Translations under genes and position numbers: made by a program
The notes under the pieces: model-generated
The model's input: the letters and a program-made list of their open reading frames with translations, nothing else
Told to the model about the DNA's origin: nothing
Databases searched by the model: none
Part shown: positions 7,993 to 52,843 of the stretch, piece by piece
Layout: every line of letters begins with the position of its first letter
Position numbering within the stretch: the first letter of the stretch is position 1
Source: a virus
DNA: 52,843 nt
Direction: 5' to 3' (one strand)
Virus record (IMG/VR): IMGVR_UViG_3300050166_000172
Coordinates: 1-52,843 of that record

Positions 7993-8103
7993 ATGGAAAC
8001 ATTTTTTTTAACTATTGAAAAACACAGAGACACTGCTATTTGTTTAGCGGTGTTTATTGTGATTTGTTTATCAATAATAAAATCTGGAAAAGATGAAACT
8101 TAA
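7993..8103 (+). CDS. Small single-pass membrane protein
   Basis: A 36-residue ORF starting two bases after recT, with one transmembrane segment (AICLAVFIVICLSII, about 16-30) and a short charged tail. Its 3' end overlaps the start of the MBL-fold gene by 11 bp. Very short membrane ORFs recur in this phage (see 20865, 31857 and 51584); function unknown. Confidence 0.5.
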   Translation: METFFLTIEKHRDTAICLAVFIVICLSIIKSGKDET

Positions 8104-8833
8104 AATCATTGGAACAGGCTCAAAAGGTAATGCCTACATTCTCGGAAACGAGAATGAGGCACTTTTGATTGAAGCAGGAGTTAACATCAAAGAAATTAAG
8201 CAAGGCTTAGATTTTGAGTATTCAAAAGTAGTTGGCTGCATTGTTAGCCACGAGCACCAAGACCATTGCAAATCAGCTAATGAAGTAATGAGATTAGGAA
8301 TTGATGTTTACACTAGTTCCAAAACACACCAATCAATAAACGGAGATGTAATTCATAGATCATTACCAATTGCATCGAAAGAAATAATTCAATTGGGTGG
8401 TTTTAAAATTATGGCCTTTGATGTAAAACACGATGCAGCTGAGCCGCTTGGTTATTTAATTGAACATGAAGAATGTGGTAAGGTTTTATTTTTAACTGAC
8501 ACGTTTTATTGCAAGTACACCTTTCCTGGTTTAAATAACATAATTATTGAAGCCAACTATTCAAAAGAAATTATTGATAAAAAATACGGACCTGATAGTG
8601 ATAAAGAATTTTTGAGAAACAGAATTTTACAGTCTCACTTTTCTCTTGAAAACTGCATTGATATGCTAAAAGCAAATGATTTATCTGCAGTAAATAACAT
8701 TGTACTAATTCACTTATCAGATAGCAATTCAAATGAAAAGCAATTCAAAGAAGAAGTATTTAATGCAACTCAAAAAAATATAACCGTAGCTAATAACGGA
8801 ATGATTATAGAATTTAACAAAACACCTTTTTAA
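8093..8833 (+). CDS. MBL-fold metallo-hydrolase (YycJ/WalJ-like)
   Basis: A 246-residue metallo-beta-lactamase-fold protein. The metal-binding signature SHEHQDH gives His53, His55, Asp57 and His58; more ligands are likely in DVKHDAAEPLGY, LTDT and LIHLSD. The start GTGSKGNAYIL is typical of the YycJ/WalJ branch, members of which include nucleases. In Bacteroidota phages it sits next to recT, as here, so a DNA-processing exonuclease role beside RecT is plausible but not proven by sequence. Confidence 0.88.
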   Translation: MKLKIIGTGSKGNAYILGNENEALLIEAGVNIKEIKQGLDFEYSKVVGCIVSHEHQDHCKSANEVMRLGIDVYTSSKTHQSINGDVIHRSLPIASKEIIQLGGFKIMAFDVKHDAAEPLGYLIEHEECGKVLFLTDTFYCKYTFPGLNNIIIEANYSKEIIDKKYGPDSDKEFLRNRILQSHFSLENCIDMLKANDLSAVNNIVLIHLSDSNSNEKQFKEEVFNATQKNITVANNGMIIEFNKTPF

Positions 8834-9051: not shown

Positions 9052-9528
9052 ATGGAAACATTAGAAATTAGTAAGGCAAACGCCTTGAAAGCACACAAAG
9101 ATGCAAATACTAAAGGTAAATCACTTTTAGAAAACTTATTTGGAAAAAAATTTTTCTTAAAAGACATAAAAGACAGAATAAGCTGTTTTGATGATGTTTT
9201 AAAAGAAAATGGTACTACAAGAGAAGAATTTGAAAAATCATGTAAAGATTTAGATCCTGACGAAATTGCTTATAAAATGGCAAAATTAGTATGCCTTGTT
9301 TATAATGAAGGTTGGATTCCAGACTGGAATAATAGTAATGAATACAAATATTACCCGTGGTTTGAAATGGGTTCCTCTTCGGGCGTCGGTTTTTCGTACT
9401 ACGGCTGCGATTACTGGCTTTCGGATTCGAGTGTCGGCTCGCGCCTTTGCTTTAAATCTTCTGATTTAGCAAAACACGCTGGTAAACTTTTTGAACAAGA
9501 AATTTATAAACCATTATTCACAATTTAA
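9052..9528 (+). CDS. DGR target (variable) protein 1
   Basis: A 158-residue protein. Residues 1-90 are helical and charged; from about 98 it has the signature of Bacteroidota DGR targets: KYYPWFEMGSSSGVGFS, a variable stretch, VGSRLCFKS, then a helix (DLAKHAGKLFEQEIYK). The variable repeat covers residues 107-133. Variable residues include Y116, Y117, G118, C119, Y121, L123, S124, D125 and S127. The conserved ends suggest a compact C-type-lectin-like binding domain with an exposed variable face, by analogy with known DGR targets. There is no signal peptide or membrane segment. The gene is in the early operon, so a cytoplasmic ligand or a late-assembled virion role are both open. Confidence 0.9.
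   Translation: METLEISKANALKAHKDANTKGKSLLENLFGKKFFLKDIKDRISCFDDVLKENGTTREEFEKSCKDLDPDEIAYKMAKLVCLVYNEGWIPDWNNSNEYKYYPWFEMGSSSGVGFSYYGCDYWLSDSSVGSRLCFKSSDLAKHAGKLFEQEIYKPLFTI
9371..9450 (+). repeat. DGR variable repeat 1 (VR1)
   Basis: 80 bp aligned without gaps to the template repeat at 9946-10025. It differs at 14 positions, all of them adenine in the template (offsets 11, 18, 30, 34, 37, 42, 48, 49, 51, 54, 61, 66, 73, 78). No other base differs. Replacement bases are G (eight), T (five) and C (one). The last 20 bp (ending CGCGCCTTTGC) should contain the initiation of mutagenic homing site. By hand count 46 of 80 bases are G or C, well above the AT-rich surroundings. Confidence 0.95.
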
Positions 9529-9540
9529 TATATAAAAATT

Positions 9541-9915
9541 ATGTATACAAAAATTAAAACATTTGAAGATGCTTGTGTTAAAGAAAATCTTGATCCTAAT
9601 ACGGTAATTCCTGATTTTTCATTATTCCCAGAAAAAGATAGACAAGCAATGATTGACCATGCTAAATTGATTATTATAAACAAAGCAATAAATGAAGACT
9701 GGATTCCTGATTGGTTAAATTATAACCAAACTAAATATTACCCGTGGTTTGAAATGGGTTCCTCTTCGGGCGTCGGTTTTTCGTGCGACGACTACGTTGA
9801 CTGGAGTACGAGTTCGAATGTCGGCTCGCGCCTTTGCTTTGAAAGTAGAGAAAAGGCAATTTATGCAGGCAAAACTTTTATAGAGTTGTATAAATCATAC
9901 TTTGTAAAAGAATAA
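9541..9915 (+). CDS. DGR target (variable) protein 2
   Basis: A 124-residue paralogue of target 1, starting 12 bp after it. The start (IKTFEDACVKENLDPN) is typical of these small Bacteroidota DGR targets. It shares WIPDW, KYYPWFEMGSSSGVGFS, VGSRLCF and the closing AGKTFIELYKSYF helix with target 1, while the rest of the N-terminus differs. The variable repeat covers residues 73-99 and encodes a different set of residues (C82, D83, Y85, V86, D87, S89, S92). No signal peptide. The conserved frame with diversified residues is the DGR hallmark. Confidence 0.9.
   Translation: MYTKIKTFEDACVKENLDPNTVIPDFSLFPEKDRQAMIDHAKLIIINKAINEDWIPDWLNYNQTKYYPWFEMGSSSGVGFSCDDYVDWSTSSNVGSRLCFESREKAIYAGKTFIELYKSYFVKE
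9758..9837 (+). repeat. DGR variable repeat 2 (VR2)
   Basis: 80 bp aligned without gaps to the template. It differs at 11 positions, all template adenines (offsets 11, 18, 28, 30, 40, 42, 49, 55, 66, 73, 78), nine to G and two to T. Offsets 11, 18, 66, 73 and 78 are changed identically in VR1; the other changes are private or, at 30, 42 and 49, affect the same site with a different base. Confidence 0.95.
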
Positions 9916-9920
9916 AAAAA

Positions 9921-10049
9921 AAGGTTGTGTGGTGTAGTTGCTGTAGTTCCTCTTCAGGCGTCAGTTTTTCGTACAACGACTACGATAACTGGAATACGAA
10001 TTCGAATGTCAGCTCGCACCTTAGCAAAAAAATAAACACCACAGACCTT
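9921..10049 (+). ncRNA. DGR template RNA region with flanking stem
   Basis: The template repeat (9946-10025) is enclosed by an imperfect inverted repeat. AAGGT (9921-9925) pairs with ACCTT (10045-10049), and TGTGGTGT (9928-9935) pairs with ACACCACA (10036-10043), with a small internal loop between. The region has no ORF with a plausible start. A transcript here would hold the template on a closed stem, which could define the ends of the RNA used by the reverse transcriptase. The stem is seen directly; the role is inference. Confidence 0.75.
9946..10025 (+). repeat. DGR template repeat (TR)
   Basis: 80 bp non-coding copy of both variable repeats, between target 2 and the reverse transcriptase. 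It holds 20 adenines. Read in the target frame it has five Asn codons (AAC or AAT) at offsets 30, 42, 48, 54 and 60; AAY codons let adenine mutagenesis reach many amino acids without making stops, a classic DGR template property. The 3' end CGCACCTTAGC is the IMH-star counterpart of CGCGCCTTTGC in the targets. Confidence 0.95.
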
Positions 10050-10080
10050 GCTTACATAGCAAAAAATAACAATTTTAAAA

Positions 10081-10110
10081 GGTTCGTTAGTAAATAATTG
10101 AAAACGAACC
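10081..10110 (+). ncRNA. Hairpin between template and reverse transcriptase
   Basis: GGTTCGTT (10081-10088) pairs with AACGAACC (10103-10110) over a 14-nt AT-rich loop. It ends 15 bp before the reverse transcriptase start. No T-run follows, so it is not a standard terminator. It may be part of the structured spacer RNA that binds the reverse transcriptase, or a translation control element. Confidence 0.55.
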
Positions 10111-10125
10111 ATTAAAGCAAAGGCA

Positions 10126-11088
10126 ATGAAAAGAATAGGAAATTTATATCAAAAAATAATATCGAAAGAAAATCTTTTAGCTTCAGAACTAAAAGCAAGA
10201 AAAGGTAAGTCATTTCAATATGGTGTTCGTGTTTTTGATAAAAACAAATTGGAACTTATTGATCAACTTTATAATGAATTGAAAAGTAAAAATTTTAAAA
10301 CTTCTCAATACACAACTTTTACTGTTTTTGAACCTAAAGAAAGATTAGTTTTTAGACTTCCATACTTTCCAGACAGAATATTACATCATGCAATTATGAA
10401 TATTATGGAGCCTTTATTTACAAAATGGTTTACAAATGATACCTATAGCTCAATTAAAGGAAAAGGCATTCATAATGCAGCCAATAACTTAAAAAAAGCA
10501 TTAAAAGACAAATTAAATACAAAGTATTGTTTAAAGCTAGACATTGTAAAGTTTTATCCAAACATAAATCACAATGTTTTAAAGCAACAACTTCGAAAAA
10601 AAATCAAGGACCAGGATTTACTTTGGTTATTAGATGAAATTATTGAGAGTGCTGAAGGATTACCAATTGGCAACTATTTAAGTCAATATTTTGCTAACTT
10701 TTATTTAACCAGTTTTGACCACTGGATAAAAGAAGAAAAGCAAATTAAATATTACTTCAGATATGCTGATGATATTGTAATTCTATCACAATCAAAAGAG
10801 CATTTACACCAAGTTTTATCAGATATTAAACTGTATTTAAATGATAATTTAAAACTTCAAATTAAAAATAATTATCAAATATTTCCAGTTAAAGCTCGGG
10901 GAATTGATTTTGTTGGATATGTTTTTTACCATACACACACATTGCTACGAAAATCAATTAAAAAAAGATTTGCAAAAGCAATATCAAAAAAGAAAAATAA
11001 CCAAACAATAGCGGCTTACAATGGTTGGACAAAACATTGTAACGCAAAACACTTACTTAAAAAATTATTACCTAATGAACAATTTTAA
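10126..11088 (+). CDS. DGR reverse transcriptase
   Basis: A 320-residue reverse transcriptase lacking maturase or nuclease domains. Motifs: LKLDIVKFYPNI (about 137-147, catalytic Asp139), LPIGNYLSQ (179-187), YADD (213-216, Asp215 and Asp216) and RGIDFVGY (258-265). The SQ ending of the motif at 179-187 instead of SP is typical of DGR enzymes and separates it from group II intron enzymes. It copies the template RNA with adenine errors and delivers the cDNA to the variable repeats. The template lies just upstream, as usual. Its stop overlaps the start of the next gene by 14 bp. Confidence 0.95.
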   Translation: MKRIGNLYQKIISKENLLASELKARKGKSFQYGVRVFDKNKLELIDQLYNELKSKNFKTSQYTTFTVFEPKERLVFRLPYFPDRILHHAIMNIMEPLFTKWFTNDTYSSIKGKGIHNAANNLKKALKDKLNTKYCLKLDIVKFYPNINHNVLKQQLRKKIKDQDLLWLLDEIIESAEGLPIGNYLSQYFANFYLTSFDHWIKEEKQIKYYFRYADDIVILSQSKEHLHQVLSDIKLYLNDNLKLQIKNNYQIFPVKARGIDFVGYVFYHTHTLLRKSIKKRFAKAISKKKNNQTIAAYNGWTKHCNAKHLLKKLLPNEQF

Positions 11089-11371
11089 AGATTTTGATAT
11101 TAAGCCAGTGATAACAAATTTTGTTGGTGAAAAAATTACTACTCAAAAAATACTTGATAAAGAAATTATTGTAATTGACTTCAAAATTTTGCCATCAAAA
11201 TTTGACGGAAAAGGAGATAGATTAGACTTGCAAATTGAGTATAGAGATGAACCAAGAGTTATTTTTACAGGTGGTAAATACCTAATACAAACAATAGAAA
11301 AAGTACCAAAAGATAAGTTTCCATTTAAAACAAAAATAACTAAAAATGGAGAGCATTTGGAATTTACTTAA
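11075..11371 (+). CDS. Small protein coupled to the reverse transcriptase
   Basis: I place the start at ATG 11075, inside the end of the reverse transcriptase gene, giving 98 residues (MNNFKDFDIKPVITNFVG); an upstream in-frame ATG at 11021 would extend it deep into that gene. The pattern is alternating beta strands (EIIVIDFKILPS, RLDLQIEY, PRVIFTGGKYLI) ending in a short conserved-looking tail (GEHLEFT), suggestive of a small OB-like or beta-barrel fold. Overlap with the reverse transcriptase suggests coupled translation and a possible DGR accessory role, but it does not resemble the helical Avd protein. It may simply be a DNA-binding replication protein. Confidence 0.65.
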   Translation: MNNFKDFDIKPVITNFVGEKITTQKILDKEIIVIDFKILPSKFDGKGDRLDLQIEYRDEPRVIFTGGKYLIQTIEKVPKDKFPFKTKITKNGEHLEFT

Positions 11372-28289: not shown

Positions 28290-28370
28290 GGGGAAGTAGC
28301 TCAGTTGGCTAGAGCAGATTTGAGATGATATCAATAAATAGAGTCGCTGGTTCGATTCCAGCCTTTTCCA
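28290..28370 (+). tRNA. tRNA-like gene with abnormal anticodon arm
   Basis: An 81-nt tRNA-like sequence. The acceptor GGGGAAG pairs with CTTTTCC over 7 bp (two G-U); D-arm GCTC-AGTTGGCTA-GAGC and T-arm GCTGG-TTCGATT-CCAGC are canonical. The anticodon arm is not: stem ATTT/AAAT of only 4 bp around a 14-nt loop (GAGATGATATCAAT) instead of 7 nt, within which TTGA / TCAA could form an inner hairpin. No anticodon with the usual U33 is readable. CCA is not encoded. It may be a degenerate phage tRNA or a tRNA mimic. Position is unusual, within the packaging operon. Confidence 0.55.
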
Positions 28371-51682: not shown

Positions 51683-52843
51683 TTAAAGTGCTGGTGAATT
51701 TTCTAAAATATTTTTTCTGTGGACTTCTTTCACAACTTTAGCATATTTTTCAGTCATTAATTTAGAAGTATGGCCATAAAGTTCACGTAAACTATCTAAC
51801 TCTAAACCTGCTAAAATTTTTCTGTTAGCTCCTAAGTGTTTCATAGCATATAAATTCATTTGAATTCCTAAGCCTTTTTTAACTAAATTTTCCCATCTAC
51901 GAGTTGCAGTGTCGCGATTCATTTTAGTTGGTCCTGGAATAAAATCATTAAATTTTCCAACATTACCTTTTCCAGGATCTCTAAAACTACCAAATAAATA
52001 AAAATTTTTTGGAAGTATTTCAAAATCTAATTTATAAAAATACTCTTTTAAATGATTATTTATCGGCACTATCCTTTTTTTGTTCGTTTTTGTAATTGAT
52101 GCAGGAAGAACAATTTCTGAATTTTGTAAATCAATCATATCTAAAGTTAATTTTGTAATTTCTTCTGGACGAATTCCTGTGTGAAAAATTGTTAAGCAAA
52201 AAACCCAAAAATTAAAATGTTTACCTTCTAAAGCATTTTTTATAATTTCTATATCTTCAATTGATGCTGGAGCATTAGCATCGCTTTCAGTAACTGGCAA
52301 ATTTTTAACGTTATGCGCTGGATTAGTTTCTATTATATCCCATTGAATAAGCTCACTTAAAATGGCCTTTAAATGATTAAGGTGTTTGTTGTATGCATTA
52401 TTAGACCAATTTCGCTGCTCCTTAGCTTTTTCAATAATTAGTTTTATATGTATTCTTTTTACTTCAATTATTGGAAGTTGTACAAAATTAAGTGATTTAA
52501 TAGATTCTTTTACAAATTTAATTGTTCCGTTATAACCAGATATGGTTTTCGGACTTAAATTTGCTTTCTTTTTATCCATTGCAAAAAACAAAGCTTCAAT
52601 CAATGATAAATCACTTTGTTTTTGAATTACTTCAGGAACTAATGGATTCCATCCTTCTTTTAATTTTTGATGCAAAGCCTCTTTAAGTAAATTAGCTTCT
52701 TTTTCACGTTTTTTGTAATCATCAATGTAATTTATTCCATATTTAAAACGGAATAGTTTTTTGTCATATCTAAAATAGACAAACCATGATTTTTTTAGGT
52801 CATCATATTTGACAACCTTGGGGATAGTGTAGATTGATTTCAT
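51683..52843 (-). CDS. Phage integrase (tyrosine recombinase)
   Basis: A 386-residue tyrosine recombinase whose ATG is at the last bases of the window (52841-52843). N-terminal part (about 80-180) resembles the SAM-like core-binding domain. Catalytic domain: Arg225 in HTGIRPEE, His358 in YGHTSK and nucleophile Tyr367 in TEKYAK. The HxxR box appears as YAMKH (Tyr332, Lys335), as in Bacteroidota integrases with a KH-type box. It is transcribed leftwards and its attachment site is expected just beyond the window, in a tRNA-Ser. Confidence 0.9.
   Translation of the reverse strand: MKSIYTIPKVVKYDDLKKSWFVYFRYDKKLFRFKYGINYIDDYKKREKEANLLKEALHQKLKEGWNPLVPEVIQKQSDLSLIEALFFAMDKKKANLSPKTISGYNGTIKFVKESIKSLNFVQLPIIEVKRIHIKLIIEKAKEQRNWSNNAYNKHLNHLKAILSELIQWDIIETNPAHNVKNLPVTESDANAPASIEDIEIIKNALEGKHFNFWVFCLTIFHTGIRPEEITKLTLDMIDLQNSEIVLPASITKTNKKRIVPINNHLKEYFYKLDFEILPKNFYLFGSFRDPGKGNVGKFNDFIPGPTKMNRDTATRRWENLVKKGLGIQMNLYAMKHLGANRKILAGLELDSLRELYGHTSKLMTEKYAKVVKEVHRKNILENSPAL

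Follow-up and report, generated by a model that had tools for sequence, protein, structure and literature searches.

How does the mutated cDNA of a diversity-generating retroelement (DGR) find the variable repeat (VR) that it rewrites, and how is the template repeat (TR) spared? According to a 2026 study, how the cDNA finds the VR and integrates is unresolved (PMC12875486). The question is raised here by a locus in a viral sequence of 52,843 nucleotides, hereafter called the window, which is the IMG/VR record IMGVR_UViG_3300050166_000172 (positions 1 to 52,843). The initial annotation had described a complete DGR with two target genes, one 80-nt TR, and a DGR-type reverse transcriptase (RT). 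This description was borne out by the alignment of the repeats and by the profile matches of the RT; the window element is a DGR. Its features are as follows.

9052..9528, + strand: target gene T1 (158 aa, phrog_11581)
9371..9450, + strand: VR1, with 14 differences from the TR, all at A, 9 of them in the core
9443..9453, + strand: end of VR1 (IMH), GCCTTTGCTTT, the exact complement of the guide
9541..9915, + strand: target gene T2 (124 aa, phrog_11581)
9758..9837, + strand: VR2, with 11 differences from the TR, all at A, 6 of them in the core
9830..9840, + strand: end of VR2 (IMH), GCCTTTGCTTT, the exact complement of the guide
9923..9935, + strand: 5′ arm of stem P1, which encloses the TR (RNA fold, covariation)
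9946..10025, + strand: TR; core adenines 28-61 diversify, while outer adenines 11, 18, 66, 73, and 78 are fixed TR/VR differences
10036..10047, + strand: 3′ arm of stem P1 (RNA fold, covariation)
10049..10061, + strand: RNA hairpin P2 (RNA fold, covariation)
10081..10110, + strand: RNA hairpin P3 (RNA fold, covariation)
10114..10124, + strand: guide AAAGCAAAGGC, complementary to the VR ends and mismatched to the TR
10126..11088, + strand: DGR-type RT (320 aa, profile matches)
11075..11371, + strand: OB-fold-like accessory gene (98 aa, phrog_19665), overlapping the RT stop codon

The DGR parts had been listed correctly, while the template-RNA structure, the OB-fold-like gene, and the guide were missing from the list. 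The element had also been taken to end at 11088, which is not the case: the partner gene (11075-11371) overlaps the RT stop codon, and the RNA structure starts at 9923.

Both VR1 and VR2 align to the TR without gaps. Adenines account for 20 of the 80 nucleotides of the TR, and all 14 differences of VR1 and all 11 of VR2 are located at these adenines (25/25), exactly as annotated before. By simple counting, the chance of this is 2.6e-11 for VR1 and 1.6e-8 for VR2. The RT matches PF00078 and phrog_1423 (3.6e-123), is 35% identical to the BPP-1 brt over 85% of the query, and has the motifs YADD and GLPIGNYLSQ (the SQ motif) as judged by eye. Each VR lies near the 3′ end of the target ORF, with about 26 codons from the VR end to the stop. 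The IMH of the VR and the IMH* of the TR have fixed differences at positions 66, 73, 77/78, and 81-83. Hairpin DNA 3′ of the VR is only weakly in excess (mean z of -1.4 for VR1 and -0.8 for VR2, with mononucleotide shuffles only), and a clear hairpin was found only after VR1 in the window. No match to Avd was found among the neighboring proteins scanned, and no ORF of at least 60 aa exists between T2 and the RT. An accessory gene homolog is absent from about a quarter of DGRs (PMC7290462). Since Avd is an optional feature, the assignment to DGRs stands without it.

The window also encodes integrases at both ends, a CI-like repressor, SbcC, RecT, a helicase, and a sliding-clamp-type protein, together with terminase, portal, head, and tape-measure genes. 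The virus record is a temperate tailed phage or prophage. The integrase genes at the two record ends (1-1248 and 51683-52843, both on the - strand) perhaps belong to neighboring integrated elements. A tRNA gene (28290-28370, + strand; Rfam, 44.9 bits) lies just 5′ of the terminase region, and a gene for a metallo-beta-lactamase-fold hydrolase (phrog_392; 8093-8833, + strand) lies between RecT and the DGR targets. Relatives of the window RT were found in genomes of Flavobacteriaceae, Chryseobacterium, Aquimarina, Pedobacter, and Sphingobacterium; the window DGR lineage has relatives in Bacteroidota.

Four scans of viral contigs gave 272 loci including the window, some of which are re-fetched copies of one contig. 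The TR/VR scan was seeded with 8-mers, as 12-mer seeds missed the window and many other loci. Recognizable TR/VR pairs were found in 235 of the 272 loci, mostly with two VRs and in 15 loci with three. TR adenines account for 2966 of the 3066 mismatches in the first 107 loci (the scan demanded at least 80% at A). A few relatives, such as L069 and L078, have one VR 3′ of the RT (about +1.5 kb from the TR) instead of upstream, and the guide match is kept there.

Are all 25 differences in the window the result of diversification, as was first supposed? This is wrong for 10 of them, five fixed sites per VR which are common across the lineage. Five TR adenines (A11, A18, A66, A73, and A78) have an identical non-A base in both VRs, and nearly all relatives with adenine at these positions have the same non-A base. 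Their uniformity across VRs and relatives indicates fixed differences and not diversification. The diversified differences number nine in VR1 and six in VR2, and VR1 and VR2 differ from each other at 12 core sites. Across 76 distinct TRs, the core adenines (28-61 of the window TR) face mixed VR bases, often still A. At the outer sites, the VRs have G at 11 (74/75), 18 (62/65), 66 (142/147), and 73 (132/136), and T at 77 (101/105).

It could be argued that the outer adenines lie inside the transferred tract and that protein selection retains only the Gly, Arg, and Cys variants, as sites 18, 66, 73, and 78 are at conserved target residues. However, fixation is equally strong at sites 11 and 77 (74/75 G and 101/105 T), both of them synonymous third positions, so protein selection cannot account for it there. 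Recent events also skip the outer sites. The comparison of VRs among relatives with the same cassette, which the initial annotation had recommended, revealed hardly any differences between near-identical relatives apart from those at core TR-adenine sites. Between L255 and L256, 13/51 core and 0/12 outer adenines are changed, with 0/181 changes at other VR positions and 0/2184 outside. The corresponding counts are 11/30, 0/17, 0/122, and 0/1787 for L057 and L059, and 15/27, 0/3, 1/86, and 0/1549 for L086 and L087. Over five near-identical pairs (including L254/L261 and L209/L210), 80/174 core and 0/50 outer adenines differ; two of the five are closely related to one another. Protein selection was rejected: two of the fixed outer sites are synonymous, and recent events leave all of them untouched. 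I regard this explanation as very improbable.

The core-only changes between near-identical contigs suggest that the DGR lineage is active and that transfer is limited to about TR 19-65. This is read from the sequences of relatives, and activity of the window copy is not shown from its one genome. Could the cassette of the window phage be an inactive relic, only one copy of each VR having been seen in a single isolate? This is hardly credible given that the RT ORF, the RNA fold, the guide (11/11 to both VRs), and the accessory gene are all intact, that the two VRs are distinct at 12 core sites, and that the relatives are active judging from their sequences.

The alignment of 64 template RNAs gave a 12-bp stem P1 enclosing the TR, followed by the hairpins P2 and P3. 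In this alignment, paired cells amount to 93.5%, compared with 72.8% after shuffling and at most 45% when slid; the double-change cells number 363 versus 93 in the shuffled control, and the covariation score is 0.659 versus 0.241. The single window RNA has a folding z of -3.4 against shuffles. Thus, the template RNA fold is conserved and strongly covarying. No Rfam match was found at the DGR, and Rfam has no family for the template RNA. It is inferred that P1 is a natural cDNA stop.

The last segment of the spacer before the RT start, AAAGCAAAGGC, is the 11/11 complement of GCCTTTGCTTT in both VRs. Its TR counterpart, ACCTTAGCAAA, mismatches this guide at 5 of 11 positions, every one of which is an adenine. 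The whole spacer was searched in the relatives without choosing a position beforehand, and the best VR complement ends 1-4 nt 5′ of the RT start in 203 of 295 VR/spacer pairs. Complementary runs of at least 9 nt exist for 153/295 VRs, for 0/295 TRs, and for 1.8% of shuffled VRs; the TR matches the guide no better than shuffled sequence does. In permutations, guides fit their own VR over the VRs of other loci with z of 10.6 (128 unique guides), and the atypical guides alone gave z of 8.0 (n=31). Shuffles and permutations leave some common-descent effects, for which thinning by RT identity served as the control. After thinning the RTs to <70% identity, z was 6.0 (26 RTs) and, for the atypical guides, 4.5 (12 RTs); with the limit set at <65%, the test of the atypical guides gave only weak support (n=8, p 0.06). 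In L078, CTCTGTTTT replaces CTTTGCTTT in both VRs, Leu-Cys-Phe is still encoded, and the guide is changed to match. Further paired changes of guide and VR were found in L118, L147, L148, L208, L107, L069, and L070. Among bacterial contigs, L384 has an 11-nt variant match, and Bacteroidales elements have matches of 9-10 nt. The guide matches are poor in L139, L197, L240, L170, L125, L067, and L043. In summary, the guide complementarity is specific to the VR and covaries across loci. That the guide pairs with the VR at the IMH, directs the cDNA there, and spares the TR is inferred, in the absence of a pairing experiment. A11, A18, and A66 are outside the guide-paired segment, and the guide does not explain their fixation. 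No earlier description of guide-VR pairing was found in the literature searched, which did not extend to a structural study of the BPP-1 RNA from 2025; an earlier description is therefore not excluded.

Is a guide present in other DGRs? In BPP-1, the spacer sequence AGGTGGTCA (Sp 48-56) is the complement of the VR sequence TGACCACCT (118-126), where the TR has TGCCCATCACCT. In 35 of 45 BPP-1 relatives, VR TGACCAC and spacer GTGGTCA are found together, while no TR has the motif (0/45); variation is far greater in the TR counterpart than in the VR. The overall longest-run score of this group is hardly higher than that of shuffles (6.9 versus 6.1), and the case rests on the recurrent motif and its position, mid-spacer and 80-100 nt 5′ of the RT. 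I take the priming adenine of the BPP-1 cDNA to be Sp A56 and the cDNA start to be TR 117; if both hold, the guide and the cDNA would form one continuous strand along the VR. An internal spacer adenine primes the BPP-1 cDNA at IMH*, giving an RNA-cDNA hybrid from which an Okazaki-like intermediate has been proposed to arise by processing (PMC12875486). The IMH/IMH* mismatches determine directionality in BPP-1, and the BPP-1 guide site falls in the region of the IMH mismatches tied to it (PMC3240598). In the relatives of Bacteroides phage Versailles, the spacer sequence ACGGCACA is present in 14 of 20, which are all 14 with TGTGCCGT in the VR, and in no case does the TR have it; this spacer sequence is close to an ATG. 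Fourteen other DGR phages were also searched: 13 have no VR-specific run of at least 8 nt at the IMH, and no TR was detected in LBR48. Thus, at present sensitivity, not every DGR has the guide, or those phages have a shorter one. In a distant DGR lineage of Lachnospiraceae and other Clostridia (L404-L409), the TR and VR ends likewise show A-to-G differences (TTAGTAAATG versus TTGGTGTATG), with a spacer complementarity of merely 6-7 nt.

The segment 1-4 nt 5′ of the RT start codon in the window lineage might be merely the ribosome-binding region of the RT, with the VR match a by-product of the conserved Arg-Leu-Cys-Phe codons of the targets; indeed, a conserved SRLCF motif is encoded in the VR. 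It is difficult to reconcile this with the covariation of guide and VR across loci, including the codon-silent change in both VRs of L078, with a TR match no better than that of shuffled sequence, and with the mid-spacer guide of the BPP-1 relatives, 80-100 nt from the RT. I consider this explanation unlikely. Another possibility is that the partner of the guide is not DNA but the VR segment of the target mRNA, and that this pairing controls RT translation as a feedback on the RT level. The targets, TR, and RT are on the same strand and probably in one transcript, and the guide is at the RT start in the window lineage. Against such feedback, the BPP-1 relatives have their guide far from the RT start, the guide overlaps the IMH, whose TR mismatches set BPP-1 directionality (PMC3240598), and the match is kept in several VR copies per locus when one would be enough. 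The mRNA pairing is doubtful to a similar degree.

The accessory gene has homologs in 225 of the 229 relatives with room 3′ of the RT, mostly in the same place. The protein model has a pLDDT of 92.6. Its best PDB matches are mostly OB domains (RuvBL2, SSB, PriB, and LEF-3), with Z up to 6.5, rmsd 3.1, and 69 aligned residues; Foldseek gave no E below 0.07. With Z below 8 alone, the evidence for the predicted OB fold is modest. The best viral matches of the model are RT-domain proteins (1.4e-7), which suggests that the accessory domain is fused to the RT elsewhere. A crAss RT model contains an OB-like domain, while the window has it as a separate gene. Pfam gave only scattered matches for the accessory protein, and these for a few of its members, NCBIfam gave none for it or the targets, and PHROG 19665 is listed as of unknown function without a DGR role.

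T1 and T2 have no significant Pfam domain, and PHROG 11581, to which both belong, is likewise listed as of unknown function with no DGR role. The T2 model has no fold match in the PDB and its VR loop is of low confidence, which leaves a CLec fold possible but unproven. The placement in an early region had been noted before; a neighborhood of DNA-metabolism genes proved right for the window and general among the relatives. The window's own neighbor genes are near the DGR in just 10 of 234 relatives. In ten relatives, the nearest large upstream ORF is primase-like (five), an exonuclease (two), or a methyltransferase, HNH endonuclease, or transposase-like ORF. Since primase, exonuclease, methyltransferase, and HNH genes lie upstream in relatives, the early placement stands. 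Most phage DGR targets adjoin tail genes (PMC8144416). Targets of the T1/T2 type are among replication genes, not beside tail genes, and are not evident tail fibers. It is inferred that T1 and T2 are diversified binding proteins produced during infection.

With a probability of roughly 0.65, I conclude that this phage DGR diversifies two paralogous small proteins of the replication region and that the guide addresses the cDNA to the VR and spares the TR. The TR would be transcribed within a folded RNA in which P1 closes the TR off and the spacer holds P2, P3, and the 11-nt guide. DGR RTs misincorporate opposite template adenines. The window RT would copy the TR in this way, and the A-only differences in the window are consistent with it. 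The guide may then anneal to the VR sense strand at the IMH, whether it is still part of the RNA or serves as an RNA primer attached to the cDNA, and the mutated cDNA would replace the VR; both steps are inferred. The TR adenines at the guide-pairing sites may protect the TR from rewriting, resulting in one-way transfer. A probable role for the OB-fold-like protein, inferred from fold and linkage only, is to bind the cDNA or the target in single-stranded form while they anneal.

A broader reading, which I hold with a little more belief than doubt, is that in DGR template RNAs of several unrelated lineages a short guide pairs with the IMH of the VR and mismatches IMH*. Such a guide would provide the address and might also be the RNA primer in an Okazaki-like RNA-cDNA strand, and IMH/IMH* directionality would be self/non-self discrimination by base pairing. 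An IMH-complementary guide is a concrete and testable answer to cDNA targeting and may explain how DGRs find their targets. If true, it explains the IMH/IMH* mismatches on which directionality in BPP-1 depends (PMC3240598), and a stretch of about ten bases in the RNA could determine the target of a DGR. In addition, the proteins hypermutated in the window lineage are small and encoded in the replication region, with an OB-fold-like partner and without Avd.

How does the window compare with known systems? The crAss-like phage DGRs (LMMB and others) share the target-TR-RT order and the lack of avd (PMC7290462), and their RTs are up to 56% identical to the window RT. In contrast, they have a single tail-collar fiber target, and no guide of at least 8 nt was found at the IMH. 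The BPP-1 DGR resembles the window in its RT, adenine mutagenesis between TR and VR, IMH/IMH* difference, spacer complement to the VR IMH, and structured RNA spacer (PMC12875486). It differs in having one tail-protein target, Avd, and a mid-spacer guide, and its TR is identical to the VR over the first 22 nt, leaving no fixed 5′ adenines. The Versailles DGR and its relatives have a target annotated as a tail protein, a longer spacer, and an RT about 45% identical to that of the window; as in the window, however, their spacer sequence ACGGCACA complements the VR IMH and mismatches the TR.
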